From NCBI RefSeq assembly GCF_000003605.2, contig NW_003150273.1:36163-66346 (forward strand): a stretch of 30,184 nucleotides of DNA. Direction: 5' to 3'. This document shows, piece after piece, positions 2,377 to 30,132 of this stretch (positions within the stretch are counted from its first letter, which is position 1; each line of letters begins with the position of its first letter). The notes beneath the pieces were generated by a model. It was not told where the DNA came from and ran no database searches. It was given only the letters and a program-made list of their open reading frames with translations. Position numbers and translations under genes: made by a program. The stretch is from Saccoglossus kowalevskii. Its lineage: Eukaryota; Hemichordata; Enteropneusta; Harrimaniidae.

Positions 2377-2916
2377 TCACACAGCTACATCATCAACCAC
2401 TGGAATGTTGTTATTACTATTTGTAACACATCTCTCTGTCAACACAGGACGTTTTGTGACGTTCGATGGGAGATCATTTTCCTTCTCAGAATCACCTTGA
2501 ATGCAATCCTGAGTATGTAAAGTCTTTTCTGCGGCATTGGCCACCATTTCCTCGATAACATCATTCCGTGCATCATCGTTTTCCATTTTCTCGAAAATAT
2601 GCGCGAGCTCTTTCAGTGACTGCATCCGTGATTTCCCTCTGATTTGAGCCACCGCGAAGTAAAACGCAAGTAATCTATTAGCCGGGCTCTTGCTTTTTTC
2701 CAAAATATTAACCTGTGCGGCTGAAAGATCTAGCCTAGCAGCGAAACCGATCCAATCTTTTCTTCCGTCACGACGGACGTCAAGATTTTCACATATTTTT
2801 CGCCACCCAGACGCGCTGATCTGATGATCCAAAGGATTCCAGTCTTCGTTAGTTTCTCTAAATAATTCAGCATTTGTCAAATCAGCTAAGTTGCGATTAT
2901 GACTATTAGAAGGCAA
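2377..2916 (-). CDS. Gene A exon 15: Death domain and C-terminal tail
   Basis: Residues 1514-1692 and stop. Six-helix Death-domain pattern: WRKICENLDVRRD, KDWIGFAARLDLSAAQV, a K-SP turn (KSKSPANRLLAFYFA), then LKELAHIFEKMENDDARNDV. The DW..(L/F)A.(R/K)L core and the final DDAR are typical of UNC5-class Death domains, which recruit partners through homotypic contacts. The tail contains DSEKEN, also present in gene B, and is Asn/Val-rich at the end. It is 13 codons longer than the gene B exon. Acceptor TATATTACAG, entry phase 0. Confidence 0.93.
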   Translation of the reverse strand: MPSNSHNRNLADLTNAELFRETNEDWNPLDHQISASGWRKICENLDVRRDGRKDWIGFAARLDLSAAQVNILEKSKSPANRLLAFYFAVAQIRGKSRMQSLKELAHIFEKMENDDARNDVIEEMVANAAEKTLHTQDCIQGDSEKENDLPSNVTKRPVLTERCVTNSNNNIPVVDDVAV

Positions 2917-5900
2917 CTGTAATATAAACAGAACGCTATATGTTATGTAAACTATTAATTACGTTATACTAATGATACATAATGATTGGTTCTAAATTTT
3001 GATTCAAAGTGTCCAATGGTATATGGCAAATATGACGAAGTGGTTAACTAGTTGGATTGTCAAGATCAAAATTGTATAACTTAAAATTAAGGGCCATCAT
3101 ACGTAGTTTTAATGCCAATTTAACTCCTATATATGCACAGAACTGCTTAGGTCTCATACAATTTTATGGACAACACAAATCGGCCGTATCTGACAGCGTT
3201 TTAAAAAAGGATACTGCACGCAAGTACAACAATAACAATAAATTGAGAATTGCATGTGTAATAATGGTTAGAAACAGACGTATGCATAGAACAGTGACAG
3301 TCTCAATTACCATAGCATCGTCCCGTGGAACAACGATGTCCATCTCATAAGGTGTCTCCTTATGAGATGGGCATCGTACGCACACTGTACAGAAGAAATC
3401 ATCGGGTTTTTTCTCGGATCCACCAGGCTTGAATGTATATGTACAGTAAACATCTTGGTCATATCCCAGATTTGCTAGACGTATAAACTGAATAACAAAA
3501 AGAATTAGTCCACCATTATAAACTTAAATAACACATATGGTGACAATAACTACCTAATGCTACCAAAAATTTGAAATAGTTTATACCGAAAATAATAATA
3601 CCATGGGCTGTCCATTGCGTGGGCATTCCGATACGTTAAATCGTCGATCAACACGAGCTCCCTAGTGTCGACAATAGATTGGTTGTTTGTTAGATACATG
3701 AGAAAAGATTACGTTCAAATAAGAAATATCGAATGCTTCTCAACATCGGTAAGGATTTCTTTTAAAAACTGTTCCCGATTCTTTCAGATTAATGAATCCA
3801 GTTAATTTTCATCTGAAAATTAATCTATAATTTGTTTTCTTCCATATATTATTGACCACCTGTAACATGCCCTATTACATGCCGTTTGCTCGAGAACATT
3901 ATTTACGCAACTAAATTGCACGCGCCCACAATGAACTAAAAACACGTAGTATGTTTTCTATTCAAGCATACAACTGCATTATTTTGTTTGATATGTCGGG
4001 GTATTATACTTAAAGGAATCTCCACTCTCCAGTATTGCTTTATGATGGGTCTTCGACTAGAATTCTGACTCGACTGCCTCTCAACCAATAATTAGCACGT
4101 CTACGTTCTTGTTTATACTACAATAATAAGCAATCTCTTATTTCCAAAATAAAACGGTAATCTAAAAATACCTTAACAGCAGAACTTCCTCTCTGCTTCC
4201 ACTCATCATCGATATCTTTAACTTCTACACTTAAGTACGTATCCTCGGTACTGACAACAATAGGTCGATATTCTGCCCATAGTGACGACGAATTGTTCTA
4301 TATAATAGACAGACAATTACACAATTAGTTATGATGAAATCACTTGAATCATGTGAATATTTTAATGCTAGTGTGCGAAAGCCCCACCCATACGCACATA
4401 CACAGCGCTAGTATTTAAAAGTCAGCACTGAATTTGTGAATTAAAAGGGAATTCCGTATTTTACTCTTTCAAATATTTGAACTAATTACCTGTACACTGT
4501 CAGTCGTTTCTCCATCAGATATGGATTCTATATCACACCATGCTCCCACATTGACCTGGAAACTCGAGTCAGTAATATATTTACCTCTAGCGCCGACCTT
4601 TAATCGTCGCTGAGCAGTATCCCCAGCTTTGGCATCTCCCTCAACGGCGAACCCAGTGAAATGATCCAAGAAAAAGAACACGTGACCACCATTAACTAGT
4701 AAAACGTCGTCTGTTACGCTATTCCAAGAACCATTCGTTGTTTTTGTCACTGCTGTGAAATTCCACGAATCCTCGTCCATCGCCGAATGGGGGAAGGACA
4801 GCACGACATCTCGTAGAAAGGATGTTCCATCGGGGCCACAGTGAATAACTGGAGTAAGGACAACCTTTCCAGGATGTATCTCCCCGTATTTATGTTCTTT
4901 CATGTAACAATATACGCGTTGTGTTGTACCAGACTGAATAGCACCAGGAGGGAGGTAAAGAACCACGTCCTGAGATGGTATTTTAAGATAACCACCACGT
5001 TCATCAAAAAGGCTGCCCACAAAACCATCTTTGTGGAAAATCTCACCAACTGTCAAGTCATATGCTTCAAACTCAGTCACCAGACGTTTGAGTGATTGCT
5101 CCTTGTCGCCAGACTGTAATATCAATATTGTTACATGTTTAATAATTAAATAATTTAATATAAGTTGTTTACAAAACGGTTACCAGGCATAAAACATATT
5201 CAATATTCAAATGACATTAACTCCCTATGACATTATTCCTATTATACACAATCAAACAATACTTTACGCCATTTGTTGCTACGTTTACTACACATTATTT
5301 CTGCAGTTAATATTTACCTTAAAACGAACTCGTATAAATATGGGAATAACACTTCATAGCATATTCAATTAATAAAACTGTTCCCGCCTATGTTTTAAAG
5401 TTACCACACACTATTTTGGACATTGATAATTTGCTGATTTTATTCCATTGTTCTCTTCCATCAAATCAGCTCTGTACAACTGCGAGTTACATTTTGTTTT
5501 GTGTGACTTGAAATATTTTACCCCCTTGTATGTGTGCTACAGCAGTAGGAAAAAGGTCAAGATGGAATAGTTAAAAGCTAGAAAAAGTATTAAAAGACAA
5601 CTTACCAAATATAGGAATTCCTTTGATAACTTGTTCTCAAGTAAACGGCAAACTGAGTTGATATCTGGTGCATCTGGTCCATTAAGCTTTATTATACTTC
5701 TGTTCAATATATTTGAGGTTATCCAGCTATCGTCTGAATTGTCAGATGTTATTAACACAAGCGACGATTTCTTCAAATTGTGGGACAAGTTCAATGCTGA
5801 ATTGAAAAAAATATATATAACATCGTCATACATATCGAACTCATGGTTATTGGGAAATATTGTAATAATAATTATGCTCAATTGAATACACATCTACCTG

Positions 5901-8900
5901 ATTTGACAGGAGTCGACGTAACGTCTCCAATTATAAAAAGGACGCACTGTGAAGCACGGATGATATTAGTCAAGTCTGTGAAAGATGATGTCCCATGCAC
6001 TGTGCCAACACTTTGTCCATTTTCTATCAACTTAACCTTTAGTTTGGCTGCCATATCACCGTCTTTATTGGCATCTACAATCAGGACGTCGTAAGCAGCT
6101 GTTGATTGTAATAACACACATAATACTATACATTTTCTATCAAACCAAATTTGGGTTACCATAGAATTATATCACTGTATGCTCAACAATGTTACAATAA
6201 TAAAAAAAACAGATGTTTACCTGAATCTGTGTAATCCGGTATGATACTATAAAGCTCGTAACACGCAGCCATCCACTCATCTACTTTACACTTTTCTGGC
6301 ACATTTAATAACATTTGCTTCAAGTCTTGGCAATCGAGCATGATGTCTTTCACACATGCATTTTGAGAAAGTTCCCATACAAGGGAAAAAGCTGATTTGC
6401 TGTGCTTTGCATTCAAGGGGTTTACATGTTCGACACTGTCTAGTATACGAGATAGACCAAGCTTCCAAAATATAACTGATCGCTTGTGATCATCAAACAT
6501 CATCCCCTTGAGACACTGTAGAGTGTTAGCAGGACTGAATACATCACTCGATACCGATGCCTGCTCATAAAGATTGTAGCAGTCGAGTCGTCGTATAGCA
6601 ACATCGATGCCTTCTCTCTGGTCTAATACCGCGAGCGGTGTTCTTAGGTGATTTGACAATGGAACCTTCCCAATAATACAGAGTGAAAGGTACTGTATAT
6701 ATTCATCAGAACAATTTGTCCACATTGCAACTTTTTCCAAAATTTCTGCATGGTCTTGAACATTCAGGTATTCAGCGTTGTTGAAAATGAATTCCAACAA
6801 TTTAGTTGCAATGATGTAGATCACCTGTAAATATATACATATGAATGAATATAAATGAAATAATAGGGATAATTAACAAATAGTTCATATATAGCTCTGT
6901 TATATTCACACATGAATATTGCGGAGTGAAAACAATACTTTTTCCTTACCCCATTTGTTTGTGATAATTGCAGATTAGGTTTTTGTCCAAGTACTTCAAT
7001 CACAAGATCCATGAAGTCGCTTTCATCAAGTAGATGCCAAAGATTGATCCTGTCATGTTCCAATTCTTTGAAATGAGAGTTTGCAATGACATTGAGAATG
7101 GACATCATACCAGGATCAATTTTGTTCATGCTAGAAATACTTCCTTTTTGATTGAAGTGCCTCATTTCTTGCAAGATACGATTCGAAAGTATCTGTGCAC
7201 TCACAGGGGTTAGAGGAATATTGATATATATATAGCGAATTTGTTGTGTAGAATATAAGAACATATCAATCAGTACTTTGTCATCAATCCCACAACCGTC
7301 CGGCCATTGTTTGCCATTGGAGATAAATACTGTACACATCAGTAGAAATACATGCGCTGTGCACACTGACTTCAAATGCATTACGGTGGTAATGACATAT
7401 TTGAGGAATTGGGATGAAAACTTCGCACGTCGAACAATTTCACTTAGTATATTCAATAAAAGTATCGCCAAGTCTTGTTTCTACAAATTAATAAAAAATT
7501 CAAAGCTATATAATACTTGATTTTGCTTGATTTGACAAACAGTTGTACAATAATCATTTAGAGGATTAGTTAAATTTTAGCTAAATTTACAACAAATCGT
7601 CGAAATGCATCGTGACTTTTTCTTTCGTTATGTAATCTAAAAATGATGCAATCACACCTTTGTATATCATGAAAGTATACAAACACATTTACAAATGAAC
7701 ACGACTTTTTGTTTTAATACCTACCACTGTATTATTCTTTTGAATAAATTTCAGAATAATGTTCGCAATGCTGACTAATGAATCATCCCAGAGATCCAAC
7801 ACTAATAGAAGTAGAACCACGTTCAGAACACTTGCTTCTGACATGTCGACAATAGCATTGCTCCGGAGAAGATCATCAATTGCCTGTATGAGTGTTGACA
7901 TTGAATCAGTTTTGTTTAAATACTGTAAGAGAGTTTCATTAATCCATTTTACACTTCCATTTAGAACGACAAAATTCTGTTTCCAATCTGCAGTAAGTAT
8001 GGGTGGCAATTTTGTATTTTCCAGCACGGGATGAAGAATAACAAAAAGAAGCTTTGCCCATACACTAATCGGTAAATGATCCTCTGAGGGTAGTCGCACT
8101 GCATAAGCGTAGAATATTTCCAGTAGCTGTGTATCAATGAATTCTTTTCCATATCCACATAGTGCAAAATTTACACATAGAAAGAGAAGACCATAGGTCT
8201 GAAAAACATGATATAAAAATTCATAAAAGTTTGCATATGAAAATTCACTATCAGATAATTCAAGGCGTCAAGTAACCAATGTAAGCCTAGTTTGTATAAA
8301 TTGGTATTCATTTGTGGTAAAATTATAAAGAAACAACTAGTATATTAAATATACTATTTGCATATGTGTAACAAATAGAAGTCCGTGTTTATGATTAAAT
8401 TTCTTCAATATCGTTATAAAAACATTGGGAACAGATTTTTACACTCTTGGTTTTTATTCCGGGTGTAATGTTCTAACTAACTTACTTTTTTAATTCGCAG
8501 TATAGAATAATTTGTTTAGAATGTTTACATAAATTCATTGATTTGAAACTCTTACTTTGATCTGAATTTTGATAGTGTATTAGATGATGTTAAATACTAA
8601 ATTGAATATGAAACGTCGGATGATAGTTTTATTGTAGGGCATTTAAATGTTGGCACCGTACTCGTATAGTGCAAGAAATGCACAGAAAACCCTTTGTCAT
8701 GTATTTGAAGAGATTACTGTAATTATATACTTACATTATCTAATGAGATATTTCCAGGATATTTGTATGTTTTCAGAACTGATTTTATCATACCAACCAT
8801 ACCACTGTTGTACGCCACTTTAGTCAATTCAGTATTATCTTGAATGAATTGTACCAATATGGCTATCAGCATCGACCACTCATCTGAACGGCCTGTTGTA

Positions 8901-11900
8901 ACCATTAACGCATATTCAGTACTCAATTGTGTGAACAATTGTGTGCCTATAACTGATCTTGCTATGAGATTTCCAATTACAAGTCGATCCGTAAAAACAA
9001 AGCTACTGTTACTTATAAATATCTTGAAATCCAAATTTATATCTAATTGGCCGTTTGTATCAAAGGTAAACGTATGAGCAAGAATAGCCAACGCTTTAAT
9101 TGCCACATTTGCAATGGTGAGGTTTGCTAGTTGACATAATATACCAGTCAGGTCCACGTTGGATAGATATCTATCTTTCCGGTGGGATCGAGCAATGTTT
9201 AGAAGGACATGGAGGGCATTGTCAACAATCTTCTCAATCCGCTGAATGAAAAAAAAACAACATACAAATATTCTTTTATTGTCATTTTTCGAATTCCGAA
9301 TGACCTTGTCTTGCAACCATGTCAAGAATACATGGTATGGTTGTATAATTTGGCATTACTTCGATTATAGTGTATTGATTCTCAATATTAATGACTGATT
9401 GATTAAACTTATAACTGATTTTGTGCAAAAAACGTCTCAATCTGCATAATTTCAAAGGATAAATTAAATTCGTCGATTAGCGCCGCACGGAGGATAGCAT
9501 TTTGTTTTACGAATATTTTGTGGATGCCTTTGTGTGAACATACAAAATACCGATCAATGACCTTTACAACATTGGATATTCATATATCAGTACAGTTGTT
9601 TGCAATATGTGGACGTATGAAATGGTTATAGAGATATTAATGGTCTTTCGCATGCAGAAGAAACTGTGGATCGTCTGCGAATATCATATGAATCGTATAG
9701 TTTTAATTTATTCGAATAGTGTTTTATTTCACAGTAGTTTGTGGAAATTATGGGGGATTTCATTACGTGTTTAAGACAAAAACTGACATCTTTATTTATA
9801 AATTTCCAAACATCAATCGTACGTTAAGTAACAGTCAGCATGATGGGGATATTTGTACTTACACAGATATTAGAATCGTATTTATCATGCCAAGATAATT
9901 AGTAAAATAGCGAATCAACGAATAATTTATGCAAAGGAGAACGTTAAATTGAATTTGAACAATGGAAAACAGTGAATTATGATTCCTAATTAGCTTCACG
10001 ATTCGTATCACATTTTTATTTAGTATTTCTGCTTTGTTTTATCCATCTGAGGAAAACCCCTGAACGGGTTGATGTGTTGAAGAGATCCTTGTATATCATT
10101 GTTTGTACAGCCTCCTAAACGGAAAGCTAATTATTGCTGCTCACTTATAATTTGGTATATCGTGACATATTAGAGCAAATTAAACTAATAAGAATTTGTT
10201 GAACTAAAACACCCACTCTGATTTTTTTAATTTGCAGACTCATACATATATAGACTGATTCCAAGCGATGGTGCAGTGGATAATGTGTTCGCCTCGACCA
10301 CGGATGTTCAGGGATCAAGTCCCGGAGCCGACGGTTCAATCAGCAGTGTGGAAAATTGGTTTACACACAAACACTTGGATCGGGTAGATGGGGCTCGTGA
10401 GCCTTGGCAGGAAATTCATCTAAGAGAAGGACAACTCTGAACTCAAACCCCGAGTGCTTTCGAGAAGAGGTTCCTGAGCCACACTATAGGACAAGGACAA
10501 TCTGATTTAAAAACCTAAGATACGTTGCCCTCGCTGTCAGCTTTCCAGTTCGAAGGTCATGGCAGATGACCCCCGAGTGTAAAGAGTGGAAACGCACCTC
10601 GCACGCCGTCTCTCAGATTAAATAAAATGTGCGTAGGGTCAAGTACACTTCCACCTGACAGACGTAGAAAACGCCCTTGAATCTTCGTCCGAAACCAAGC
10701 CAGAAATTCCAAGCTGGAATATGTAGAATCAACTTAGATACAAAAGCATAGAGACACATATTGGGTATCAAAACAAGCAGTTAACCCAAGGTAAGTAAAA
10801 TCACTATACCTTATATTTTCCTTGCTTTATTTTGTCTTGTATATAATCGAAAGATAACAGGCTATAGATGGTTTGAACCACGTTTGCAGCGCAGATAGCA
10901 TCAATAAAGCGTATTTTGCCGTCACTATATAAAGCCAAACCTTCAATTGATGATCGCAGCAGATCCCATCTGTCTTGGTACTTATTTCCAATTAAAATAT
11001 CACACAGATATATATCAGCCACGCTGTCGTAGAAAGGAAGAAAACACACGTATATGAGATGTGAAAACAAGATAAGTGTGTATATGAAACCATTGATCTG
11101 CAACTGAACTACGTACCTTGCATAAAACCTGTTAGCAAGCGCTGTTCCAAGTTCTTCATGTTCTGGCGGTAACCCACTTACTGTTCTTTTAGCCACACTA
11201 GTAACATTTACTTGTACATTAACCGTCGGCTGTGATTGTTGTAACTCGAAAAAGAGGCTGATTCTTTTTGCCAAGTCACAAACGTAAGGGTTGGGTGACG
11301 TAATATATTTATCAGCTGTTTTCTTTATCGTAATTATCACCTTTGGTGCATGTACATGGGGTAGGCAGTTGAACATCACTTTCAGAACATATACGACACT
11401 CTGTCCGTTGATCTGCAAATTGTAAATGACAGTCCCCGTTATAGTATTATTGACTGTATCAACTATAAACAGTGACGATATAGACAGTCAGTCTATGTTC
11501 AGTCAAAGTATTACCTTCTAGAAATCCATAAAAAATTACCACCAGTCGACCAGTTTGTTTTTGCTATCTTTTCGGACGTAAATGGTCAGTAGTGGACCAA
11601 TGTCAGTCAAATCGAAAACAAACTGGAGTGTATCAGTAACCTGAGTGATGTCACGTTTTAATGAGAAACGGTTAATGACAATGTACAAATTCAATTATGT
11701 TTTTGACGAAAAATTTTCGCTAGTCGGCAAAAATTTCATCGAAATCCAAAACATGCTACCCATTAATTTGTTTTACAAGATTTAGACCTATTCAGTAAAA
11801 AAATATCTTATATAAACAGACAAAAAATGGCCTGAACACGCTTGATGATATGTTCAAATGATATTTTTGTTTCAAGAAAAAAATGTCTGTTAGTCGAAGG

Positions 11901-14900
11901 TCAACCAAATAAAGAAAATGAGGACCAACTTTGAAAATTGGTCTAGTCTTGACGGTCTCTAATGAGATGGTTGCGATCTTCCTGACGATTTGCATCAAAA
12001 TATCTTAACACCTAGTCCCGCCTTTACATTCATAGAGTTGTTCCATCGCATTGCTCGAAAACATATGGCCACAGAATACGCTGTGTAACTTGTGTAATAT
12101 ATAATTAACCATACTCCACAAACGTCATGGCGGGGCCTTGCCGATCTGTCATAAATTATACTCACCATGTTGTCTTTATGTGAAGTTATGACACAACGTT
12201 TGTCAAGTAAGATGTTTGAGAATTGGAGGAATCCACCTGAGATAATCCGGGAAGTCAGTAGTTGCTGCTGCTCCTCGTGATTTGTTAACTCGCCAAGGAG
12301 GAAATAGATTGATGATATCATTTCCCAATCATTAAAATCAAGTTCTTCTTTTTTAAGAATTTGACTTTTCAAGGCTTTCATAAACAAGTCTACAGCGTTT
12401 AGCTCCACTAAGTAGTTGGCAATATATCCAGTCAATTCAGGTGATCTGTTTGACACTAACATCGAAAGATTCCGTAATGGTCTTATCTGATCTTTTGAAC
12501 AGCTTTGTTTCTTGAATTCGTCCAAGTAAGAAGAAATGGATTTTCGGATTTGCTCGCAGTCATCTTCAGGTGTTACCTTACTTGATCGAGCATTCCAAAA
12601 TTGATCTTTAGGAAACCCTGGGAATGCTGTGTTGAATATAGTATCTAAATGTAAAAGGCATTAATCGTTTATTGTGTATTTCCTTGTAGCCCATCATTGT
12701 AACATATTTTGTGAAAGTACATATATCTTCAAAATCGTTGGAGTTATATTTATTATTGACCGAGTCCTGAATTGGCGTATGATAGAATGATGTACCATGA
12801 GCTTGGCGGTACCGAGTTGTAAAGTGTTCAAATATGTATATAGCCTTACCTTTATCATATGTGGGCATATCAAATGAGTTCATACCCGGCATCCCTCCTA
12901 TCAATATTGGAGGAGAATCTATCATCCTCTTGCCTGGCCATGGCATACCTGTATAAATACCGGTTTAAATATACATGTTAATGTTGACATCATTAGTAAC
13001 AAAAACATATCATGAAATTTGTAACACTCAACACTTACATCAAATAACATAATTTAAACTGTGTCATGACAATTGCAACCCTTAACGAATTTGAATGCAT
13101 TAATCAATCTCTTTATTTAACCTCCTAAAAATTGAAGTAGTACATATCCGAGCAACAATTACTGATCAAAGTATACACAGAAGTTGATTTCATTACAAAC
13201 CATGAAATAAACAAGACAGAAAAGAAATAGAAGCACATGCACACTGAACACAATTTACAATTGTAATTGTAACATATTTTGTTTAATTTTTTAATTTTTT
13301 CATTTGAATATATTCAGTTTGTCAGCTGAGTTGATGCCAGCCTCAAATTGATTTCAAAATCTAGATACGTAAATGAATGCAGGTCATAATTAATTAATAG
13401 TGAATTTAAATTGTTATAACCTTTTAAAAAATAATTTTGATTTGTCTTCTAGGTATCATTGGAGTATGTTGGGTGATAGTGGTATCACAGGCATCCTCAT
13501 CAGCTACCATACTTACTCTATTAGAAACTTGTTCGCTTCAAAAATACCATGTTAAGTACGCCATTATTTCCCGATCAATTTGAAATTTGGGCTAACATGC
13601 GTTTTAATGATGCACTACAAAATGATCAAATTCGAGTATTTTAAATTCGGTGATACAATGCAGCCAGGTTGTGGGTTGGTTTTACACTTCAGTGCCAAGT
13701 ATTGGTAACTGACACACATAACAGTTTTAGCTATTGTGGCAGTTTCTTTCTTCCCCGCAATAAACAGTCTTTATTGTGTTCTCTATGGCAATTTTGATGT
13801 GGTACTTATGTAAAAATGTCTGCCTATGACGTGGAGAATTTACATTTTCACACATTCTTTGATTACACTATGGGACCTATATTTCCCTCAAAACTAATAA
13901 AAATGAACTTGATAATGTGTTTTAATTGAACATGTATGGACAGAAATACCATGAAGAAAAATTTGAATTATAGGGAAATGTTTCCTATCTATATACTTGG
14001 ATGCAATGTGACTTTTGCTAGTGGTACTGCTGGAAATCTCAAAATACACGTGCAATCGGTTCATGTACACCCGGTTACAGATTGACCCACAACGTTTACA
14101 TTAACCCTCTAAAGTTAACGTGTTGTGGATGGTCTTCCAAACATGGACTTACTACCAGGCATGTAACTTGGTTAGTCCAACCTGAAGCCATTTTATAGTT
14201 CTGCACAGGACCATGTTTATTCGATTCAATTCAAAAACATCTTCATGCATATCCAGCATATTAAAGTGAACATCAAAACGTCTAGACGGTCCCTGTTCAT
14301 TTGAATATTTATCATTCATATACTGTCACCCGAAAGGAAAATACACCATGCGATTTGTAAATGCACAACACAACAAAAGTAGAGTAACAAACATATATTT
14401 TATTGCAAACAGAAAACTGAATAAAACTTGCACTAACTACAAAATACAAGACTGTAAAAAAGGCTGGGCAGGGGGCCCCTTCGATCGGTGGGTACCAAGC
14501 TCACGCAGGACCAGGGTCACACAAGGTCAAGAATTTCCTGCAAGAGCCGAAATGTGGGGTTGGCCATGAAAATGGCCGCCGTGCCCTTTAATAGGGGGGG
14601 GGGCAGGATGAAATCCCAGCCACTCGACAAAAGGAGCCACACAGGTAGAATGAAGGGGTAGGTGGTGGGATAGCGAAATAGAGCCAGCGAAGCGTAGCAA
14701 ACTATGAATGAATGAGATCCTGTTGCCCGTTGAAGCCACCTGCTAAGCGTTTCCAAAACAGATTCAGATGGCACTCAGATTACAGTGTATGGCAACCGGT
14801 GATCCATTACATGACCCTTAGCACGTGTGACTCCGGTATCTATACAACTGAATTATAAAAGTACTCGTGTAGTTGTGTCTTTTATGACTGAATTTGCTGA

Positions 14901-16258
14901 CGTACTCATTGGCTGATTTGATGAATCACAGTCGGGTACGAAATATATTACTGTACCAGCGTCGAATCTTCGTCAACAATGATTACGTTCACTGTGTATA
15001 AATTGTGTGGTAATTTTGCCTATAGTAAACAGTATTTGCCAATGTAGGTCTGTATGTAGGGCGATGATTCACATCATCAATGAATTTAAATAAACAAAAC
15101 AAAACATTAACATAGCTCATAAAAAGGCCTTGATCATTTTTAACACGCGATATGTTTTTATCACTTTCATTTGCATTCAAATGACTATGGACTGTTTTTG
15201 CCTTGTACTAGAGAATGCCTTAGCTTGTGTACATTATTTATAACACACACAAGTGTTGATAATTATTTAAAATATTTGAATGTGCATCTTATGATGTCAT
15301 TCCAGCACCTCGTTCTGACAAATTGAGAATTAGGATGAATTGTTGGTGCATATTTCATATTTTTCAAAAAACGTAATTGTAACACACAAAATAATGCTAT
15401 TTCATTGTACCATATTCCACTATTCACAATTCTACAAAATTTTAACAGTCTTTAGCCAAGACTGTTTGGATAATAAAAAGCAAAAAAAAAAAAATATTCA
15501 CTCCCAAGTGCCCACAAACCTGCATCTCTACCTTAATGAACATTGTCATGCGATTTATGACCAATTTTGTCAAAAATTATGACTGGGCTTTAACAAACAA
15601 TGACCTTAACAAACAATTTATTGACCTTCTGAAAAATACGCTTCCGAGTTAGAGATTAAACAATCAGTCATGTGCAATGGCGCTTCACATTATTACATAT
15701 ACTGAGTTAGACCAATTAACCATTTGAACTACCGGGAAGATTGGTGCGTGAGTGTTAAAGTGTTAAACTGCACATTCCCAATACCTAAGTACTGCTGGGT
15801 TGAGAGAAACAGTGAAGAATAACTGTTACATACCATGGTATAGATAAGACATGAATTTACAACATATTTAATTTTAACTGTTTTAATATCAGTTGACTGG
15901 TTTAGCTGAATTAATAATCATATAATTACATAGCCAGATTTCCCCCATTGTAATACAATACGATACGGTACATTGATATAGCATTGGTTCGAATTTATTG
16001 AAGTGACGTATTGTCAAATTATTCAGTCTAAATGGTCGCAAATCATTAATGTTTAGTACGGTAATTAATTAATTAATTAGTACGACAGTTAAATGTTCTT
16101 AAACTAAAATGTAGAAAGCGTTTGAGGTTTAGTCTGTTTGAAATTAATTAACGGCAATGGTGATTTTCGCGCCGATGGCTAACGACAGACTAGGAACAAA
16201 AAATAACATACACAACAACATATGACATAAAACATGACTTACCTAATGATTCAACCAT
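2377..16258 (-). CDS. Gene A: ARM-like / TIR-like / ZU5-UPA / Death protein, complete, 15 exons
   Basis: I do not recognise this as a named gene. The gene model comes from reading the minus strand: every junction is GT-AG, phases agree across all 14 introns, and the sum is 1692 residues plus stop. Order of parts: short Pro/Gly/Met-rich N-terminus (1-60), helical ARM/HEAT-like region (about 60-870), conserved helical block (873-1073), TIR-like domain (1074-1204), ZU5 (about 1234-1330), UPA (about 1330-1513), Death (about 1547-1637), acidic tail. ZU5-UPA-Death is the signalling module of UNC5 and PIDD; UNC5 has a transmembrane ectodomain and PIDD has leucine-rich repeats in front, neither of which is present. 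No signal peptide or clear membrane span is seen, so a cytosolic scaffold or sensor is inferred. Gene B is a paralogue with matching exon structure. The least certain parts are exon 1 and whether further small in-phase exons lie in the longer introns. Confidence 0.83.
3311..3487 (-). CDS. Gene A exon 14: end of UPA region with conserved cysteines
   Basis: Residues 1455-1513, 59 codons, phase 0. It shares IRLA.L..DQD, YTFK, PDDF.C..CV and (E/D)MDI..PR with gene B. The C-x-x-C pair (DFFCTVCV) is kept in both copies, and gene A has a third cysteine (CVRC). It is most likely the last strands of UPA plus a linker to Death. Acceptor GTTATTCAG, donor GTAATT. Confidence 0.8.
4172..4297 (-). CDS. Gene A exon 13: UPA domain, middle part
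   Basis: Residues 1413-1454, 42 codons, phase 0. It encodes RPIVVSTEDTYLSVEVKDID followed by DEWKQRG, which fits the UPA element 'F.DS..NL.LSI.D....W'. The gene B counterpart (37 codons) keeps RP.V.ST.D..L.V.VK..DD.WKQRGS. Acceptor TATATAG, donor GTATTT. Confidence 0.82.
4490..5113 (-). CDS. Gene A exon 12: ZU5 domain and start of UPA domain
   Basis: Residues 1205-1412, 208 codons, phase 0. The ZU5 core is plain: GGYLKIPSQDVVLYLPPGAI, then HPGKVVLTPVIHCGPDGTSF and RDVVLSFPHSA, matching the ZU5 pattern of a Gly-x-Leu strand, 'PPGA' turn, 'L(S/T)PV..CGP.G..F' and 'V.L..PH'. ZU5 folds back on UPA and Death in UNC5 and mediates assembly in PIDD and ankyrin. The UPA part begins near WNFTAV and contains DHFTGFAVEGD followed by AQRRLKV, comparable to the 'YALVG...A.KRL' signature. 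The PIDD autocleavage site (HFS in a ZU5-like repeat) is not evident. This exon is about 80% identical in protein to gene B. Confidence 0.92.
5606..5796 (-). CDS. Gene A exon 11: C-terminal half of TIR-like domain
   Basis: Residues 1141-1204. Helix C ALNLSHNLKKS, strand D SLVLITSDN, then DDSWITSNIL, strand E RSIIKLNG, helix E DINSVCRLLENKL. With exon 10 this makes five beta/alpha units in about 131 residues, the size of a TIR domain. SDNSDDSW resembles the S-x-W turn in TIR helix C but sits one strand later than expected. Acceptor CAATTCAG, donor GTAAGT; 191 nt, the same length as in gene B. Confidence 0.72.
5898..6098 (-). CDS. Gene A exon 10: N-terminal half of TIR-like domain
   Basis: Residues 1074-1140. 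Predicted order: strand A YDVLIVDAN (compare TIR box 1, YDVFISY), helix A KDGDMAAKLKVKLIENG, strand B QSVGTVH, helix B SSFTDLTNIIRASQ, strand C CVLFIIG. This is the beta-alpha-beta-alpha-beta half of a flavodoxin-like fold and fits TIR domains best. The exon is 201 nt and phase 1 at both ends, exactly as in gene B. The classic RDxxPG of box 2 and the W..E of NAD-cleaving TIRs are not visible, so an enzymatic role is not supported. Another Rossmann-like domain cannot be excluded. Confidence 0.72.
6221..6824 (-). CDS. Gene A exon 9: conserved helical block before the TIR-like domain
   Basis: Residues 873-1073 plus one base. Conserved with gene B: WTNCSDEYIQYLSLC, IRRLDCYNLYE, DDHKRSVIFWKLGLSRI, QDLK and DEW.....ELY..IP. 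Roughly 45% of residues in the second half are identical, far more than in exon 7, so this is probably a defined domain or solenoid cap rather than generic repeats. I know no named family for it. Acceptor TTTACAG, donor TCAG/GTAAAC, exit phase 1. Confidence 0.82.
6950..7480 (-). CDS. Gene A exon 8: helical region
   Basis: Residues 696-872, 177 codons, phase 0 at both ends; acceptor AATTTGTAG, donor GTAAGG. Shared with gene B exon 28059-28625 are NGKQWP / NGDKWP, VLIDMF / VIVDIF and, close to the donor, DLVIEVLGQKPNLQL / DLVYSVLGQDSNIQL. That terminal motif is the best-conserved part of this exon and directly precedes the conserved block of exon 9. Confidence 0.82.
7725..8198 (-). CDS. Gene A exon 7: helical region
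   Basis: Residues 538-695, 158 codons, phase 0 at both ends. It begins with a hydrophobic helix (TYGLLFLCVNFALCGYG) and continues with EFIDTQLLEIFYAYAV and AKLLFVILHPVLENTKLPP. The equivalent exon in gene B (29611-30132) shares the pattern EF.D.QL..., V..HP.L.N..LP and a hydrophobic helix before the donor, at low identity. I infer an alpha-solenoid segment. Confidence 0.8.
8735..9241 (-). CDS. Gene A exon 6: ARM-like repeats
   Basis: Residues 369-537. This has the clearest armadillo-like texture in the gene: NALHVLLNIARSH, ILCQLANLTIANVAIKALAI and MLIAILVQFIQDNTELTKVA, the last followed by a Gly-Met hinge before the next helix. Such repeats are protein-binding scaffolds. A 507-nt exon in phase 0 at both ends; acceptor TTCATTCAG after a T-rich tract, donor GTAAGT. 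The equivalent exon of gene B lies outside the window. Confidence 0.8.
10262..10335 (+). repeat. tRNA-derived head of a SINE, antisense in gene A intron 5
   Basis: Pol III internal promoter boxes are visible: A box TGGTGCAGTGG at 10269-10279 (consensus TRGCNNAGNGG, one mismatch) and B box GGATCAAGTCC at 10312-10322 (consensus GGTTCGANTCC, two mismatches). Their 43-base spacing is as in a tRNA. The arms do not form a clean cloverleaf, so it is not a functional tRNA gene. It sits in the intron between exons 5 and 6, in the opposite orientation to gene A. Confidence 0.65.
10336..10700 (+). repeat. Probable tRNA-unrelated body of the SINE
   Basis: This stretch is clearly richer in GC than the rest of the intron and follows the tRNA-like head directly. 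It has no coding potential. I see no poly(A) or short tandem tail that would fix the 3' end, so the right boundary is a guess based on return to AT-rich composition. Confidence 0.35.
10810..11023 (-). CDS. Gene A exon 5: helical repeat segment
   Basis: Residues 297-368. It continues the solenoid, with helices DIYLCDILIG, WDLLRSSIEGLALY and ANVVQTIYSLLSF resembling ARM helix 2/3 pairs. It starts after CTACGACAG in phase 2 and ends at AAG/GTATAG in phase 0. The following intron (1.57 kb) carries the SINE. Confidence 0.72.
11117..11412 (-). CDS. Gene A exon 4: helical region with polar linker
   Basis: Residues 199-297 (the last codon is shared). Helices around VVYVLKVMFNCLPHVH and CDLAKRISLFFELQQ are followed by a polar, Val/Thr-rich loop and then a helix containing EELGTALANRFYAR. 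Acceptor TTTGCAG, donor GTACGT, exit phase 2. The following intron is only 93 bp (11024-11116), the shortest in the gene, and reads open in this frame, so occasional intron retention would insert 31 residues without a stop. Confidence 0.75.
12166..12644 (-). CDS. Gene A exon 3: start of the helical ARM-like region
   Basis: Residues 39-198. After a linker (FPGFPKDQFWNARSSK) the exon becomes amphipathic helical, with segments such as LRNLSMLVSNRSPELTGYIA and MISSIYFLLGELTNHEEQQQ that look like armadillo-type repeat helices. Acceptor ATTTAG, donor GTGAGT, exit phase 0. Calling it ARM-like rests on helix periodicity and hydrophobic spacing, not on a clear consensus, so HEAT or another alpha-solenoid is possible. 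Confidence 0.75.
12850..12948 (-). CDS. Gene A exon 2: Pro/Gly/Met-rich N-terminus
   Basis: Residues 6-38. The segment is low in complexity and probably unstructured, with repeated GMP and PG pairs (GMPWPG, GGMPGM). Acceptor TTTATACAG precedes it and donor GTAAGG follows. It enters in phase 1 from exon 1 and leaves in phase 1 into exon 3. No domain is recognisable. Confidence 0.65.
12949..16242 (-). other. Gene A intron 1 (3.3 kb)
   Basis: The longest intron of the gene, mostly AT-rich unique sequence. It holds the GC-rich island at 14455-14830 and an A-run near 15482. First introns of this length often hold enhancers, but no specific site is recognisable. Confidence 0.5.
14455..14830. other. 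GC-rich island in gene A intron 1
   Basis: The sequence is much richer in GC than the surrounding intron, with a run of ten or more G (about 14595-14606) and palindromic GGGGCCCC (14472-14479). It contains open frames on the minus strand (14517-14774) with no recognisable protein and no splice logic. Probably a transposable-element fragment; the family is not identified. A CAGGAAATTC word also occurs in the SINE body near 10400, which is a weak hint of kinship. Confidence 0.35.
16243..16258 (-). CDS. Gene A exon 1: start codon and five codons
   Basis: This tiny coding exon encodes MVESL plus one base of a glycine codon. The ATG has A at -3 and G at +4, a good initiation context, and the exon ends at a strong GTAAGT donor (16237-16242). 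The leftover base joins exon 2 in the correct phase. It lies 3.3 kb upstream of exon 2. If this exon is wrong, translation could begin at the first ATG of exon 2 (MPWPGKR), losing only six residues. Confidence 0.6.

Positions 16259-18112: not shown

Positions 18113-18181
<69 letters not shown>
18113..18181. repeat. (AT)n microsatellite, about 34 units
   Basis: An uninterrupted AT dinucleotide run flanked by GTG on the left and CAC on the right, so the whole locus is a perfect palindrome able to form a cruciform. It is likely length-polymorphic. Confidence 0.97.
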
Positions 18182-24519: not shown

Positions 24520-25017
24520 TTAGATGAGAGTGTTTTCCTTTTCCGAATCATCTTGCCGTGGGATCCCAGAGACAATATCAGGCTTCCGTTGATTGTCACC
24601 TCCCACAGTGACGCCCTCTATAGTTTCATTCAAACGCGTTATACATTTCAGAGTGGCATCTCTTGCATCGTCGTTTTTCATCTCATCGAAAATCTTCACG
24701 AGGTTTTCTAATGACGTGACGATTGATTTTTGTCTTCTGCGTTCCATGGCAAAGAAAAACCCGAGTAGGCGACTTGTCGGACTCTTTTTTGTCTCCAAAA
24801 TACGAACCTGGCCGGCACGTAGATGTAACTTAGCAGCCAAACCTCTCCAATCTTTTCTATAGTCGCTTTCCACATCAAGGTTTTCGCACAGTTTTCGCCA
24901 GAGATTCTCGCTGATCAGACTATCCAATGGTTTCCAGTCATCATCGAGTTCCCTGAAGAGATCAGCATTGGACATTCCTTCTTCACTATGCTCACCATCT
25001 GGTGAACTCGGGTCAAT
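24520..25017 (-). CDS. Gene B exon: Death domain and tail
   Basis: 165 codons and a TAA stop. NADLFRELDDDWKPLDSLIS, WRKLCENLDVESD, KDWRGLAAKLHLRAGQV, KKSPTSRLLGFFFA, LENLVKIFDEMKNDDARDA. All core Death-domain positions seen in gene A are kept. The tail ends DDSEKENTLI. Sequence beyond the stop still resembles gene A coding sequence (24479-24519), so the shorter tail arose from a new stop. Acceptor TTTTCCAG. Confidence 0.9.
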   Translation of the reverse strand: MDPSSPDGEHSEEGMSNADLFRELDDDWKPLDSLISENLWRKLCENLDVESDYRKDWRGLAAKLHLRAGQVRILETKKSPTSRLLGFFFAMERRRQKSIVTSLENLVKIFDEMKNDDARDATLKCITRLNETIEGVTVGGDNQRKPDIVSGIPRQDDSEKENTLI

Positions 25018-28000
25018 CTGGAAAATACCATAGCGTTGTAAAAATAAATAAATAAATTTGCCTTCTACAGCATTCGAAAATATACTCAAATATAATATCG
25101 CTTATTTGTTACATATATGATATATACTATACCTGGGCAGTCTTTCGAGGTATAAATATGTCCATGTCAATCTCGTGGCCTGCGTCTTCTAAGCATACAC
25201 ATATAGCGCAATAGAAGTCATCGGGCTTCTCTTTTTCATTAATACATTTAAATGTGTATCTTCCATGGATATCCTGATCAGATGCTAAATCCGCCAATCG
25301 TATCAACTGAAAACCAAATATATATATATATATATAACCTTATACATTGAACGAAATTCCAGAAAGCCCAACAGAATTCTCGCTTGCTTGCACAGCTATT
25401 TTCTATGCCACTAGTTTAACCAAGTTTAACCCTTCAAACGTGTATTTCAATTTACCAAAAATACTGCTTTCTGCATTGTTTGTGATATTCCTACAATAAC
25501 TCATTACCTTGACTGGGGAACCTCTTTGCTTCCATTGATCATCGAGATGCTTTACTTGTACTTTTAACTGACAGTCATGCGTACTGATCACTAGAGGGCG
25601 GCAATCTGTCCATGAACTCTGTTCGATAAAACAATGTTTAATGTTAATGTAAATGTTAATGACTTCTAAAATTACATAAATAAGAGTTAAAGATTTTTGG
25701 TAGAGATAATCCTACCTTTAGTGATCCCGACTGTGGTTGTCTTTGTGATGATTCTGTATCACACCATGCTCCTACTTCAACTTGAAGACACGTGTCGGTG
25801 ATAAAATTTCCTCTGGTGGCAACCTTTATTCTTCGTTGAGCATTTGTACCTTCTTTGGCATCGCCTTCAACAGCATATCCAGTGAAGTGATCCACGAAAA
25901 GAAAGACGTAACCATCATTGACCAATAAAACTTCATCCAGTACGATATTCCAATTAAGATTAGTTGTTTTCGTCACTGCTGTAAAATTCCATGAATCTTC
26001 GTTTATGGCCGAATGGGGGAAGGACAACACAACATCTCGTAAGAAGGATGTTCCATCAGGACCACAGTGAATAACTGGAGTAAGGACACCTTTCCAGGAT
26101 GTATCTCACCATATTTGTATTCTTTCATATAACAATACACACGTTGTGTATTACCAGACTGAACTGCACCTGGTGGAATATAGAGAACCACATCCTGAGA
26201 TGGTAGTTTTAGATATCCACCACGATCATCAAAAACACTTCCAACAAAACCATCTTTGCTGAAAACCTTTCCAACTTCTAACGAACATAACTCAAATTCT
26301 TCTATCAGTGGTTTTAGCTCGTCCTCTTTGTCAACAACCTAGAAAAAAATCAAAGATTGGAATATGTATCAATTACATTCACTCTTTTCGCATAAAAATA
26401 CGTCAAAATACTGCAATAGTGTTATAAACAAACTTACGAAGTTCAGATTTTCTCTTGGCAGTTTATTTTTGATCAAGCGGACAAGGTGACTTATATCTTC
26501 CTTCATAGAGTCGCACAATATAATGATATTTGTATCTGAGGTAATGGAACTTAGCCAACTGTCTTCTTCATGTTGACACATCATTAATACAATAATAGTC
26601 TGTTTCAATCTTCTCGATAAATTCATTGCTGGTAATGTAAAAATAACAACGTTAATTGAAAGTCATGTATGTCCATATTAGTATGCATTATATAATGTTA
26701 GTACGTGATGTCCATGACCGCAAACAATATTTCCATTTTCCGCACCTGATCTCAGCACTGTATCATCCAAGTTATCAATGATGTACAAAGCACTCTGTGA
26801 AGATTGTAAACCATTGGAAATTTCCGTAAAGGAGGATCCTGCAGTCGTCAGCGCAACAGTACACCCCTCTGTTTCCATGCGAGTTTTGAGATTTCCTGCC
26901 AGGACATGTTCCCGTGTAGTATTGACAATCACGATGTTGTGTTTATCTGTTGAAATAGAAGAAATAATTTTAGCACAAGAATCGTTTTACATATTTATAA
27001 TATTATTTAAATAATTTAGACGTAATCAATAATGGAGCAATAAGTTTAAATCTATCTTATCTCTGTTGGATAATATTAAGATATCAAGAATAATTCGATT
27101 TAGTATGTTAATATAAATTTATGTGACAAATCACTGAATCAAATCAGTCTCAATGTTTTCATTGTGTTGTCTTGCCTAAAATTAGCAAGCATGCTCATTA
27201 TGAAACGATTAACGGATTGAAATGTCAAAAGTGAGACCCCCCTACTTTAAATATTTCTATTTTTTAAGTGGTTTTGTATAGTTTTAAAGTAAAATACATT
27301 TTCGTATGTCAAGTGATAGTAGAATAAATTACTTAGTGGTATAATACTGGACTTGGCATACGTAATTTTTACCTGTATCTTTACACGTTGGTATGGTGTC
27401 ATATAACTCAAACATTACACCATTCCATTCATCTTCTCTACACTGCGTGTGTATAGTCAACATCGCTTCCTTGAGATCTTGACTCGTGGCCATGACATTT
27501 CTGTTACACCTGTTTTGAGCCAATCTCCACAGCAATAACAATGCACAGCCGACATGTCTGACGTTCTCTGTATCAATGTTCTCGACAATATCTGCGATAC
27601 GAGATAGACCCAGTTCCCAAAACAGAACTGATCGACTGTGATCATCAACCATCAATACATTGAGGCATTGCAAGAGGTCATTGATGCTTAACTGTTGTAG
27701 ATTTGTTATTGTATTTTCTCCATACAGGTTGTAGCAGTCCAAACGTCGAATGACAACACTCATAACTTGTTTAGAATCTAATACTTGGAGAGCTTTATTG
27801 CGGATGGACAGCGAACATCTGGTCAATACACACACCGACAATAACTGGAGATACTCATCAGAACAGCGCGTCCATTTACAAATCGATTCCTGCTCACTTT
27901 CATCCAATTGATCGTCGTAGTTGTAAAAAAACGCAAGCAATTTTTCAGCAAGGAAAGATATTACCTACAAAACACGTAGAAAAAATGTTGGCAAAAAGTA

Positions 28001-30132
28001 ACATCAACAGAATGGATAATCACATTAAAGCCACTAGCAAAATAAAATAAAATCATACCTTGTTCGTTTTTACTAATTGGATATTGGAATCTTGACCAAG
28101 TACACTGTAGACGAGATCTTGAAATTTCATTCCTGAATGAATGCCATGGCCGAAAATAGAACTTTGAAAATTGCCAGTACCCTTCATAGAAAAGCGATGA
28201 ATACATTCTATAATAATGCTGAAACTGGGCTCTAGTCCATCCATGGTAGAAGGTTCTGTGATCTGAAATTGGCCCAGCATTTGCAACATCCGCATTGACA
28301 GGGTGCGAGCGTCTACCATGTCCATCGGCACGCACGACTCACTCATCAACTCAGCAGATTGTTTGAGAACTTCATAATCAGAAAATATGTCTACGATCAC
28401 CTTGTCATTTACAGTACAACATAAGGGCCATTTATCGCCATTCCTTTTCCAAATTGCATGTAACCATAGCAATGCAAAGTTTTTCATTGTGTGACCCTTC
28501 CCCAACTGCAACAAAGTGTTGATGACGCCTGTGAAGTAATCATCAGATACCGGCACGTATTGGAGTAAAAGTAAAAAATATAGCAATTTTCCGCATGATA
28601 CTGTATCAATACTGAAGTCATACTCCTGTAAGAACAATTAAAGATAAAATACATGTTCAATATGAGTGTTTTATCATGTTAGTCTCCTTAGTTAAAGTAG
28701 CTATTAAAAAAGTCGTGGTAACTGATTGGCATGTTCAAATGAAGTCTATTGACAGCTGTCTGTTATATTTCTATGGCTTATTTTTAAAAGCTGCTTACTG
28801 TGTGGCTTACACTATATGGGAAAGCCACATGTGGTGTTGTGTACTGATTTGAAACAATTGTTGTTTCATTGTTTGTCAATATGCGAATTGTCACTGTTGT
28901 ATGGTCAAAATGGTTCCATGTCGTGCCTGAGGAGAAGAAAAATAATAAGAGTATTTCGGAGATTTTGGTAAGATATTTTACATATAAGAATGTATTACTT
29001 CACTCCAGCTTTATCAAATAATGTTGCAATTGATTTTAAGCAACTTCGTCTGATTATTATGTATATAGTACACCGAAAAGCCACTGCCATAATGACCGAG
29101 GGTTAATTAGAATGATCCTGACTTCAGTCTCGATGGAAAGATTATTATTTTGAAATATAATATGTCTTTATATACAGTGTGAACTGTATTGAGCTGTATT
29201 TTTTAAAGTGATGTGCTCACATTATAGCTTGGATGCTCGTAATTATGTATAATTAATATATGTATAATCCGAAAATATAGTATAATACGATGTGTATTAC
29301 TATTTCCCGTATACCTTGACAGTTTCCCGCTGTTTGTTCTTTCTAAGGTTTTTATTTTGTCAACAAAAAATAATAAAGCGTTTCTGTGCTTTATGTCCTT
29401 CTTTCCTTTGCCGCAAAATAAATTTCGATTGACGACAATTAAACAAATGCAATATGATGTTACAAAGTCAGATTTGTTTGTATTTAATGTTGTTGTTTTT
29501 CTTCTCGATACCTTAATTATCAAATGACAGTACGTCCTATAATTACAGAATAATTTTAAATGTTTGGTGAGAGATGTACGAAGATAAATAACGTATGATT
29601 TCATACTTACAGATGTACTCCCCCTGTCTATGTCGCGAAAGAATTCAAGCAATGTGCTTACGAGAGTAGGAGCTGATTCTTCAAACATTGACCCTCCAGC
29701 GTCATCCAACAGCAAGTAGTAAAGTAATTCTGTCAAATCTGTTGTTGCATCTTGACGACTAGTGCGGAAACCAGTCTTAAAGTCAGCTTCTAATTTTTCT
29801 ATTTCACGTGTTTTTCTCAAATAATTGTGTAGAAGAGAATGAGTTATTTGTATGCCAAAGGCAGATCGAAACCAAATATATCTTTTCAATCCATAATCAG
29901 TAGTAAAAAAATTGGGAAGCTGTATATTGTCCAGCATAGGATGAAATACAACAAGGCAACACATTGCAGTTGCATTCACTGAGACTACATCATCACCTGT
30001 AGTTAGCGATGTCGTTGTTGCATATTCATACACGTTGTTCACGAGTTGCATATCCTTGAATTCATCATGAAATCCATTCACTATTAAAGAAGTCGTTCCT
30101 ATCAGAAGAGCAATGAGAAGCCAATGGACCAT
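24520..30132 (-). CDS. Gene B: paralogue of gene A, 5' end outside window, one-base frameshift
   Basis: Nine exons correspond one to one with exons 7-15 of gene A in the same order and phases: helical region, conserved block, TIR-like domain (201 + 191 nt), ZU5-UPA, Death. Exons for the N-terminus should lie beyond base 30184. All splice sites are GT-AG; the weakest is the GTGCGG donor after the first TIR-like exon. A single missing base in the ZU5 exon breaks the frame (about 26087), yet the downstream UPA and Death exons remain open and conserved. So the gene is either recently inactivated, expressed as a truncated ARM/TIR-like product, or affected by an assembly error. The head-to-tail position next to gene A shows tandem duplication. 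Confidence 0.78.
25133..25306 (-). CDS. Gene B exon: end of UPA with CxxC pair
   Basis: 58 codons, phase 0. LIRLADLASDQDIHGRYTFK, then KPDDFYCAICVCLEDAG and IDMDIFIPRK. The C-x-x-C pair of gene A is kept (DFYCAICVC). Acceptor TGGTTTTCAG, donor GTATAG. Confidence 0.8.
25319..25336. repeat. Short (AT)n microsatellite in gene B intron
   Basis: About nine TA units just upstream (in gene sense) of the acceptor for the CxxC exon of gene B, 13 bases from the AG. Length change here could affect the branch-point region. Confidence 0.85.
25508..25618 (-). CDS. Gene B exon: UPA middle part
   Basis: 37 codons, phase 0. SSWTDCRPLVISTHDCQLKV, then QVKHLDDQWKQRGSPVK. It is five codons shorter than gene A, all at the variable N-terminal edge. 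Acceptor CGAACAG, donor GTAATG. Open and conserved despite lying downstream of the frameshift. Confidence 0.8.
25716..26338 (-). CDS. Gene B exon: ZU5 and start of UPA, one base short
   Basis: 623 nt against 624 in gene A, with both splice sites conserved in position. ZU5 motifs GGYLKLPSQDVVLYIPPGAV and HCGPDGTSFLRDVVLSFPHS are present, but in two different frames because one T is missing after HPGKV. After the shift the frame reads about 27 unrelated residues to a stop at 26003-26005. Protein identity to gene A is about 80% once the break is ignored, the highest in the pair. Confidence 0.88.
26084..26090 (-). other. One-base deletion frameshift in gene B ZU5 exon
   Basis: Gene A reads GGAAAGGTTGTCCTTACTCC (minus strand) and gene B reads GGAAAGGTGTCCTTACTCC: one T of the TT pair is absent. 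Flanks are otherwise nearly identical for more than 100 bases. The exon is 623 rather than 624 nt, and no compensating indel follows. Confidence 0.85.
26438..26628 (-). CDS. Gene B exon: C-terminal half of TIR-like domain
   Basis: 191 nt, entering in phase 1 and leaving in phase 0. Helix C AMNLSRRLKQ, strand D TIIVLMMC, EEDSWLSSI, strand E TNIIILC, helix E EDISHLVRLIKNKL. DSW and NKL are shared with gene A. Acceptor CATTACCAG, donor GTAAGT. No catalytic Glu in a W..E setting is seen. Confidence 0.72.
26746..26946 (-). CDS. Gene B exon: N-terminal half of TIR-like domain
   Basis: 201 nt, phase 1 at both ends, identical in length to gene A. Strand A HNIVIVNTT (box 1 tyrosine replaced by His), helix A REHVLAGNLKTRMETEG, strand B CTVALTT, helix B SSFTEISNGLQSSQ, strand C SALYIID. 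About 20 of 68 residues match gene A, mostly hydrophobic core plus SSFT and SQ. The donor GTGCGG is weak, but its position matches gene A exactly. Confidence 0.72.
27373..27964 (-). CDS. Gene B exon equivalent to exon 9 (conserved helical block)
   Basis: 197 codons plus one base, exit phase 1 as in gene A. Conserved: WTRCSDEYLQLLSVC, IRRLDCYNLYG, DDHSRSVLFWELGLSRI, QDLK, DEWNGVMFELYDTIP. Acceptor TTTTGTAG, donor ACAG/GTAAAA. The strong conservation next to the TIR-like domain suggests that the two act as a unit. Confidence 0.82.
28059..28625 (-). CDS. Gene B exon equivalent to exon 8 (helical)
   Basis: 189 codons, phase 0; acceptor TTCTTACAG, donor GTATGA. It carries the shared NGDKWP, DKVIVDIF and DLVYSVLGQDSNIQL motifs. 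It is 12 codons longer than in gene A. An alternating helical pattern is retained (YFLLLLQYVPVSDDYF, NTLLQLGKGHTMKNFALLWL). No stops or frameshifts. Confidence 0.8.
28626..29610 (-). other. Gene B intron (985 bp)
   Basis: Lies between the equivalents of exons 7 and 8. The upstream exon's frame runs open into the intron for more than 400 bases, but the GTAAGT donor at 29605-29610 and comparison with gene A place the boundary. Nothing else recognised. Confidence 0.55.
29611..30132 (-). CDS. Gene B exon equivalent to exon 7 of gene A (helical)
   Basis: 174 codons, phase 0, acceptor TTTCTTAG, donor GTAAGT. It opens with ATG directly after the acceptor and a hydrophobic stretch (WLLIALLIGTTSLIVNG) that imitates a signal peptide. 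It aligns with an internal exon of gene A (EF.D.QL..., VVFHPMLDNIQLP), so I read it as an internal exon. It is 16 codons longer than its counterpart, mainly in the middle. Further 5' exons would be beyond the window. Confidence 0.75.

Follow-up and report, generated by a model that had tools for sequence, protein, structure and literature searches.

UNC5 has an ectodomain and a membrane span, and the crystal structure of UNC5B (PDB 3g5b) contains ZU5, UPA, and Death domains. PIDD is built as LRR-ZU5-ZU5-UPA-Death. In NLRP1 and CARD8, a ZU5-UPA unit (FIIND) is followed by a CARD, so that ZU5-UPA again precedes a terminal death-fold domain (sections of PMC3210808). The same sections place the processing of PIDD at HF/S, following each of its ZU5 domains, and list Ser, Thr, or Cys as nucleophiles. 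The available parts of two further papers report NACHT-ZU5 fusions in early animals (PMC12909245) and a TRADD-N clade fused to a UPA-ZU5 module (PMC8195603); new partners of ZU5-UPA are therefore an expected kind of novelty. Here, we analyzed a 30,184-nt stretch of the Saccoglossus kowalevskii genome (assembly GCF_000003605.2, contig NW_003150273.1, positions 36,163 to 66,346), referred to below as the window and numbered from its first letter. It contains gene A (2377..16258, minus strand), with a model of 15 exons and 1692 amino acids, and a tandem paralogue, gene B (24520..30132, minus strand). We give about an even chance to the reading that gene A encodes a multi-domain animal signaling adaptor, probably cytosolic, with a PIDD/NLRP1-like build and a self-cutting, releasable Death output.

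An original prediction, made from the sequence of this locus, had described the gene A product as ARM-like, TIR-like, ZU5-UPA, and Death; its ZU5-UPA-Death output was confirmed. Pfam identified a ZU5 domain (PF00791) at residues 1238 to 1325 of gene A (4751..5014, minus strand; E = 4.8e-18, 65.6 bits versus a cutoff of 21) and in the corresponding piece of gene B (E = 3.1e-07). Over 371 residues (1237 to 1607), gene A was collinear with the UNC5B crystal structure (E = 1.2e-12), and a profile of both copies from which Death was removed still matched UNC5B (E = 4.2e-12). This match points to homology and not to mere resemblance. From its collinearity, we assign a UPA region (3311..4654, minus strand), which covers the last part of exon 12 together with exons 13 and 14, and a Death domain at residues 1554 to 1634 (2554..2796, minus strand). 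The Pfam UPA model itself gave no match for gene A at E values up to 1 and none for the gene B piece at E values up to 10. For Death, against a Pfam cutoff of 22.6 bits, gene A scored too low (20.2 bits) and gene B passed (25.8 bits), and a profile of both copies matched the UNC5 and MyD88 death domains with E values of 0.0058 to 0.014, the lowest being that for UNC5. Thus, ZU5, UPA, and Death lie in the same order as in UNC5B within one alignment. Gene A differs from UNC5B in having another kind of N-terminal half: no extracellular Ig or TSP domains were found by Pfam in the 1692-residue model, of which exons 1 and 2 are uncertain, at E values up to 1.

The two proteins also differ at the position where related proteins cut themselves. 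In both alignments to UNC5B, the L-D-H-F-T-G sequence of gene A falls on L-D-Q-L-G-T, which places His1355-Phe1356-Thr1357 (4655..4663, minus strand), a candidate autoproteolysis site, opposite Q-L-G at Leu677. The number of this Leu was obtained by counting from Cys663, Glu666, Cys670, and His624, as named in PMC3210808, all of which matched the letters of the sequence. The HFT motif occurs once in the 1692 residues of gene A. Alignment to gene A reveals His-Phe-Thr at the same place in gene B (25881..25889, minus strand), within D-H-F-T-G; hence, both copies have a Phe followed by a residue of the nucleophile class (Ser/Thr/Cys) before the last ZU5 strand. This is where NLRP1 and CARD8 have their self-cutting position, and the sections of PMC3210808 on these proteins equate UNC5B Leu677 with Phe296 at the SF/S site where CARD8 is cleaved and name this Phe as the structural anchor of cleavage. 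A Thr nucleophile is described in part of the literature on polycystin-1, whose GPS site is cut at HL/T (PMC4810088), and the GPS domain is reported, in the accessible part of PMC3482391, to be homologous to ZU5. The equivalent of UNC5B His624 is also kept in gene A (FPHS against VPHC). Autocleavage of the PIDD or NLRP1 type at F1356/T1357 is plausible from these alignments. The HFT position was absent from the original prediction and is a new point.

Since gene A has His-Phe-Thr at the self-cutting position, PIDD, NLRP1, and CARD8 offer a better comparison than SARM1 and MyD88. Gene A shares with PIDD a long front half before ZU5-UPA-Death and HF at the self-cutting position; it differs by a single Pfam-reported ZU5 stretch, a Thr where PIDD has Ser, an additional alpha/beta domain, and the lack of leucine-rich repeats, none of which were found in gene A by Pfam at E values up to 1. 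Compared to NLRP1 and CARD8, gene A has Death in place of CARD, HFT in place of SFS, and no Pfam-reported NACHT.

A tblastn search with gene A as the query, covering all other parts of the window, detected the paralogue, which lies on the same strand. Its nine exons inside the window (30132-29611, 28625-28059, 27964-27373, 26946-26746, 26628-26438, 26338-25716, 25618-25508, 25306-25133, and 25017-24520, minus strand) correspond to exons 7 to 15 of gene A, and its 5′ part runs past the window edge. All eight introns are at equivalent places and in equivalent phases, the phase after exon 12 being read from the frame of exon 13 since exon 12 of gene B lacks one base; donors are GT in eight of eight cases and acceptors AG in nine of nine. 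Intron lengths vary widely between the copies: introns 9, 10, and 11 measure 122, 101, and 492 nt in gene A, and their gene B counterparts 426, 117, and 99 nt. No third copy was found in the remainder of the window (best E = 0.95). Because gene B repeats the same order of exons 7 to 15, the helical part, the alpha/beta domain, and the ZU5-UPA-Death tail belong to one gene, as had been predicted. The break between exons 9 and 12 that the prediction named as its possible refutation is made unlikely by the conserved intron positions. Gene B was not mentioned there and adds support for gene A beyond it.

The ZU5 exon of gene B (25716..26338, minus strand) is 623 nt long versus 624 nt in exon 12 of gene A and contains a single frameshift near 26,090. 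Both flanks of the frameshift are conserved (73 and 70% amino acid identity to gene A), and gene B has no internal stop in its remaining eight exons within the window; therefore, the frameshift reflects either a loss that is recent or a mistake in the assembly.

Divergence between the copies is uneven. Amino acid identity is 26, 31, 44, 29, and 37% in exons 7 to 11, then 57, 47, and 51% in exons 13 to 15, with the two pieces of exon 12 at the values given above. Overall, the nonsynonymous divergence (dN) is 0.49 and the synonymous divergence (dS) is 1.54, the latter near saturation; these values and the identities were computed on provisional gene B exon ends that later shifted by a few bases. 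Third codon positions were the most divergent in 10 of 10 aligned pieces. Together with dN and dS, this pattern shows that exons 7 to 15 are a real coding unit constrained in both copies. In the ZU5 exon (4490-5113 versus 25716-26338), dN was 0.19 to 0.22 and amino acid identity was far above that of other exons. Since dS in this exon (0.80 and 1.03) falls just a little short of that in the others (1.09 to saturated), strong constraint accounts for the likeness, and gene conversion is possible. Fast-diverging exons 7 to 9 next to such a ZU5 exon would fit a changing sensor coupled to a constrained output.

In the self-cutting adaptor that we propose, by analogy with PIDD, NLRP1, and CARD8, the front half would act as a sensor or binding part and, together with the small alpha/beta domain, would precede the ZU5-UPA-Death output module. 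After translation, ZU5 would cut itself between Phe1356 and Thr1357, and both pieces would stay associated, with the Death domain held shut. Engagement or removal of the front half would free the C-terminal 336-residue UPA-Death piece, which may then oligomerize and recruit a Death-domain partner; a caspase adaptor or an IRAK/RIP-type kinase is our guess. The outcome would be cell death or NF-kappaB-type signaling.

Several observations weigh against this proposal. The position of UNC5B Glu666, which pairs with the UNC5B death domain according to part of PMC3210808, is occupied in gene A by Asn adjoining an alignment gap; therefore, the closed state may differ from that of UNC5B. HFT at a ZU5 HF site, with Thr for Ser, was not met among the literature matches listed. 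The candidate sensor part has no identified relative, and its faster divergence may simply reflect weaker constraint; the comparison also covers two copies only, which share ancestry. Last, residues 653 to 671 of gene A (exon 7) are very hydrophobic (Kyte-Doolittle mean of 2.1), making membrane attachment possible; the gene B counterpart appears less hydrophobic by eye.

The strongest alternative, possible in our view and clearly less probable than self-cutting, is an uncleaved module like that of UNC5 or UNC5CL, that is, a closed scaffold opened by ligand binding in which HFT is a neutral change. The closest solved relative, UNC5B, indeed has no HF/S site, and the Thr of gene A differs from the Ser of PIDD and CARD8; however, each copy carries the His as well as the Phe at this site, and it is this Phe that the relevant section of PMC3210808 describes as the cleavage anchor.

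We consider unlikely the full reading of the original prediction, in which an ARM solenoid, a TIR relay, and ZU5-UPA-Death form one adaptor that joins the logic of SARM1 and MyD88. The long region encoded by exons 3 to 9 of gene A (6221..12644, minus strand; residues 39 to 1073) is the candidate sensor. A structure prediction for exon 9 was helical, perhaps a solenoid, at low confidence [predicted local distance difference test (pLDDT) of 43], which fits the predicted helical character for this exon; membership in the ARM family was not established. Neither whole gene A nor exon 9 of both copies matched ARM/HEAT at Pfam family cutoffs or any ARM chain in the PDB, and a self-comparison with hhalign found no internal repeats, although divergent ARM repeats can escape both the Pfam and the repeat searches. 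Weak Pfam matches below cutoff were to DNA_pol_B_exo2 (E = 0.047, gene A residues 327 to 380) and Acetyltransf_18 (E = 0.18, exon 9). As a family name, “ARM-like” was not confirmed.

The same applies to “TIR-like.” The domain at residues 1074 to 1204 of gene A (exons 10 and 11; 5606..6098, minus strand) is alpha/beta and perhaps flavodoxin-like. The AF2 model of the gene B domain had a low pLDDT of 41 and contained beta-alpha-beta-alpha-beta in its first half; this low-confidence model fits an alpha/beta fold, as predicted, and resembled TIR and CheY-like (receiver) domains about equally. Pfam searches of both copies at E values up to 10 gave, in place of TIR, matches below cutoff (the best being Zw10_N in gene B, E = 0.012, 16.6 versus 26.3 bits), and PDB profile searches gave no TIR chain and one chance-level match (3l7y, E = 0.019). 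With hhalign, E was 0.27 against one made-up TIR consensus, profiles of one or two sequences having little power. Alignments were also controlled with 1000 shuffles. Global/local Z scores against the TIR consensus were 1.9/1.7 for gene A and 2.4/2.3 for gene B; against the reversed consensus, they were 2.7/2.0 and 0.5/2.0, and against CheY, 0.3/0.2 and 1.4/0.4, a mixed picture that neither establishes nor rules out TIR. The catalytic Glu of a SARM1-type TIR NADase sits in the helix that follows strand C; by eye, no Glu lies within 10 residues past the Ser of TPVKS/TVLRS in either copy, the TIR alignment being uncertain. Overall, the domain perhaps fits a flavodoxin-like alpha/beta fold in general, and TIR is possible. 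Compared to SARM1 (ARM-SAM-TIR), gene A has no SAM, recognizable ARM or TIR, or visible catalytic Glu and has the ZU5-UPA-Death tail; compared to MyD88 (Death-TIR), its Death is weakly similar (E = 0.0071), the domain order is reversed, and TIR is unproven. The combined SARM1 and MyD88 logic therefore goes beyond the evidence, and the ARM and TIR names should be avoided as long as there is no confident structure.

A bolder version, which we likewise hold to be improbable, is that gene A represents a new animal family whose self-cutting ZU5(HF/T)-UPA-Death module is preceded, in the same protein, by a divergent solenoid of the ARM type and by a TIR without enzymatic activity. If true, a single protein would sense through its solenoid, offer its TIR as an assembly surface, and release a Death output in the manner of PIDD/NLRP1, and the family would be expanding by tandem duplication while its sensor half changes fast.

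Weakest by far is the view that the model fuses two genes, one for the helical and alpha/beta part and another for ZU5-UPA-Death: the evidence is genomic only and nothing in the window corresponds to the first six exons of gene A, but both the shared exon order and intron places of gene B and the spliced frame of gene A, which runs from exon 9 to exon 12 without a stop codon, make it very improbable.

The gene A model was built by hand from genomic sequence. Its exons 1 to 8 are at 16258-16243, 12948-12850, 12644-12166, 11412-11117, 11023-10810, 9241-8735, 8198-7725, and 7480-6950, and exons 9 to 15 are at 6824-6221, 6098-5898, 5796-5606, 5113-4490, 4297-4172, 3487-3311, and 2916-2377 (all minus strand). 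Each of the 14 introns has GT-AG ends, the phases agree, and the spliced frame is open over 1692 residues; the coordinates, intron count, and residue ranges given by the original prediction were correct. For the exon 7 donor, the GT at 7725 was picked to keep the frame, as an alternative GT four bases beyond breaks it. The window contains 12 stop-to-stop frames of at least 190 amino acids versus 0.01 per window simulated (first-order model, 100 simulations), which exceeds chance expectation. When in-frame coding scores were compared with those of similarly long intron stretches, exons 3 and 6 exceeded the 99th percentile and exons 4 and 5 lay between the 95th and 99th percentiles. Scores of exons 1 and 2 were unremarkable by this comparison, with exon 2 scoring slightly higher in another frame; exon 1 has 16 coding nt, starts at the first ATG past an in-frame stop, and lies 3.3 kb from exon 2. 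A search for a paralogue of exons 1 to 6 found none within the window. Intron 4 (11024-11116, minus strand) is 93 nt long, in frame, and free of stops and could be retained, adding 31 residues.

Inside an intron, TGGTGCAGTGG and GGATCAAGTCC lie 45 bases apart on the plus strand (10267-10322). They resemble the A and B boxes of a tRNA promoter, as in a tRNA-derived short interspersed element. No tRNA was found in the window, nor any Rfam family at its gathering threshold. A minisatellite with units of ~157 bases (19485-20410) lies between genes A and B, and there is a perfect AT microsatellite of 34.5 units at 18113-18181.

Searches of viral, prokaryotic, and plasmid sequence collections confirmed no relative, which has no bearing on animals, and a TIR consensus search of phages gave no match. 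In the open literature, including the accessible parts of PMC8195603, PMC12909245, and PMC8260672, we found no description of ZU5 and TIR in one protein with Death. A search for ZU5 together with TIR, armadillo, and invertebrate also found nothing there, most subscription papers lying outside its scope.

In PIDD, NLRP1, and CARD8, ZU5-UPA can answer damage to, or binding by, the N-terminal part with the release of a death-fold fragment. With its new N-terminal half, its Thr version of the site, and its tandem copy, gene A would show this release mechanism paired with other sensors.
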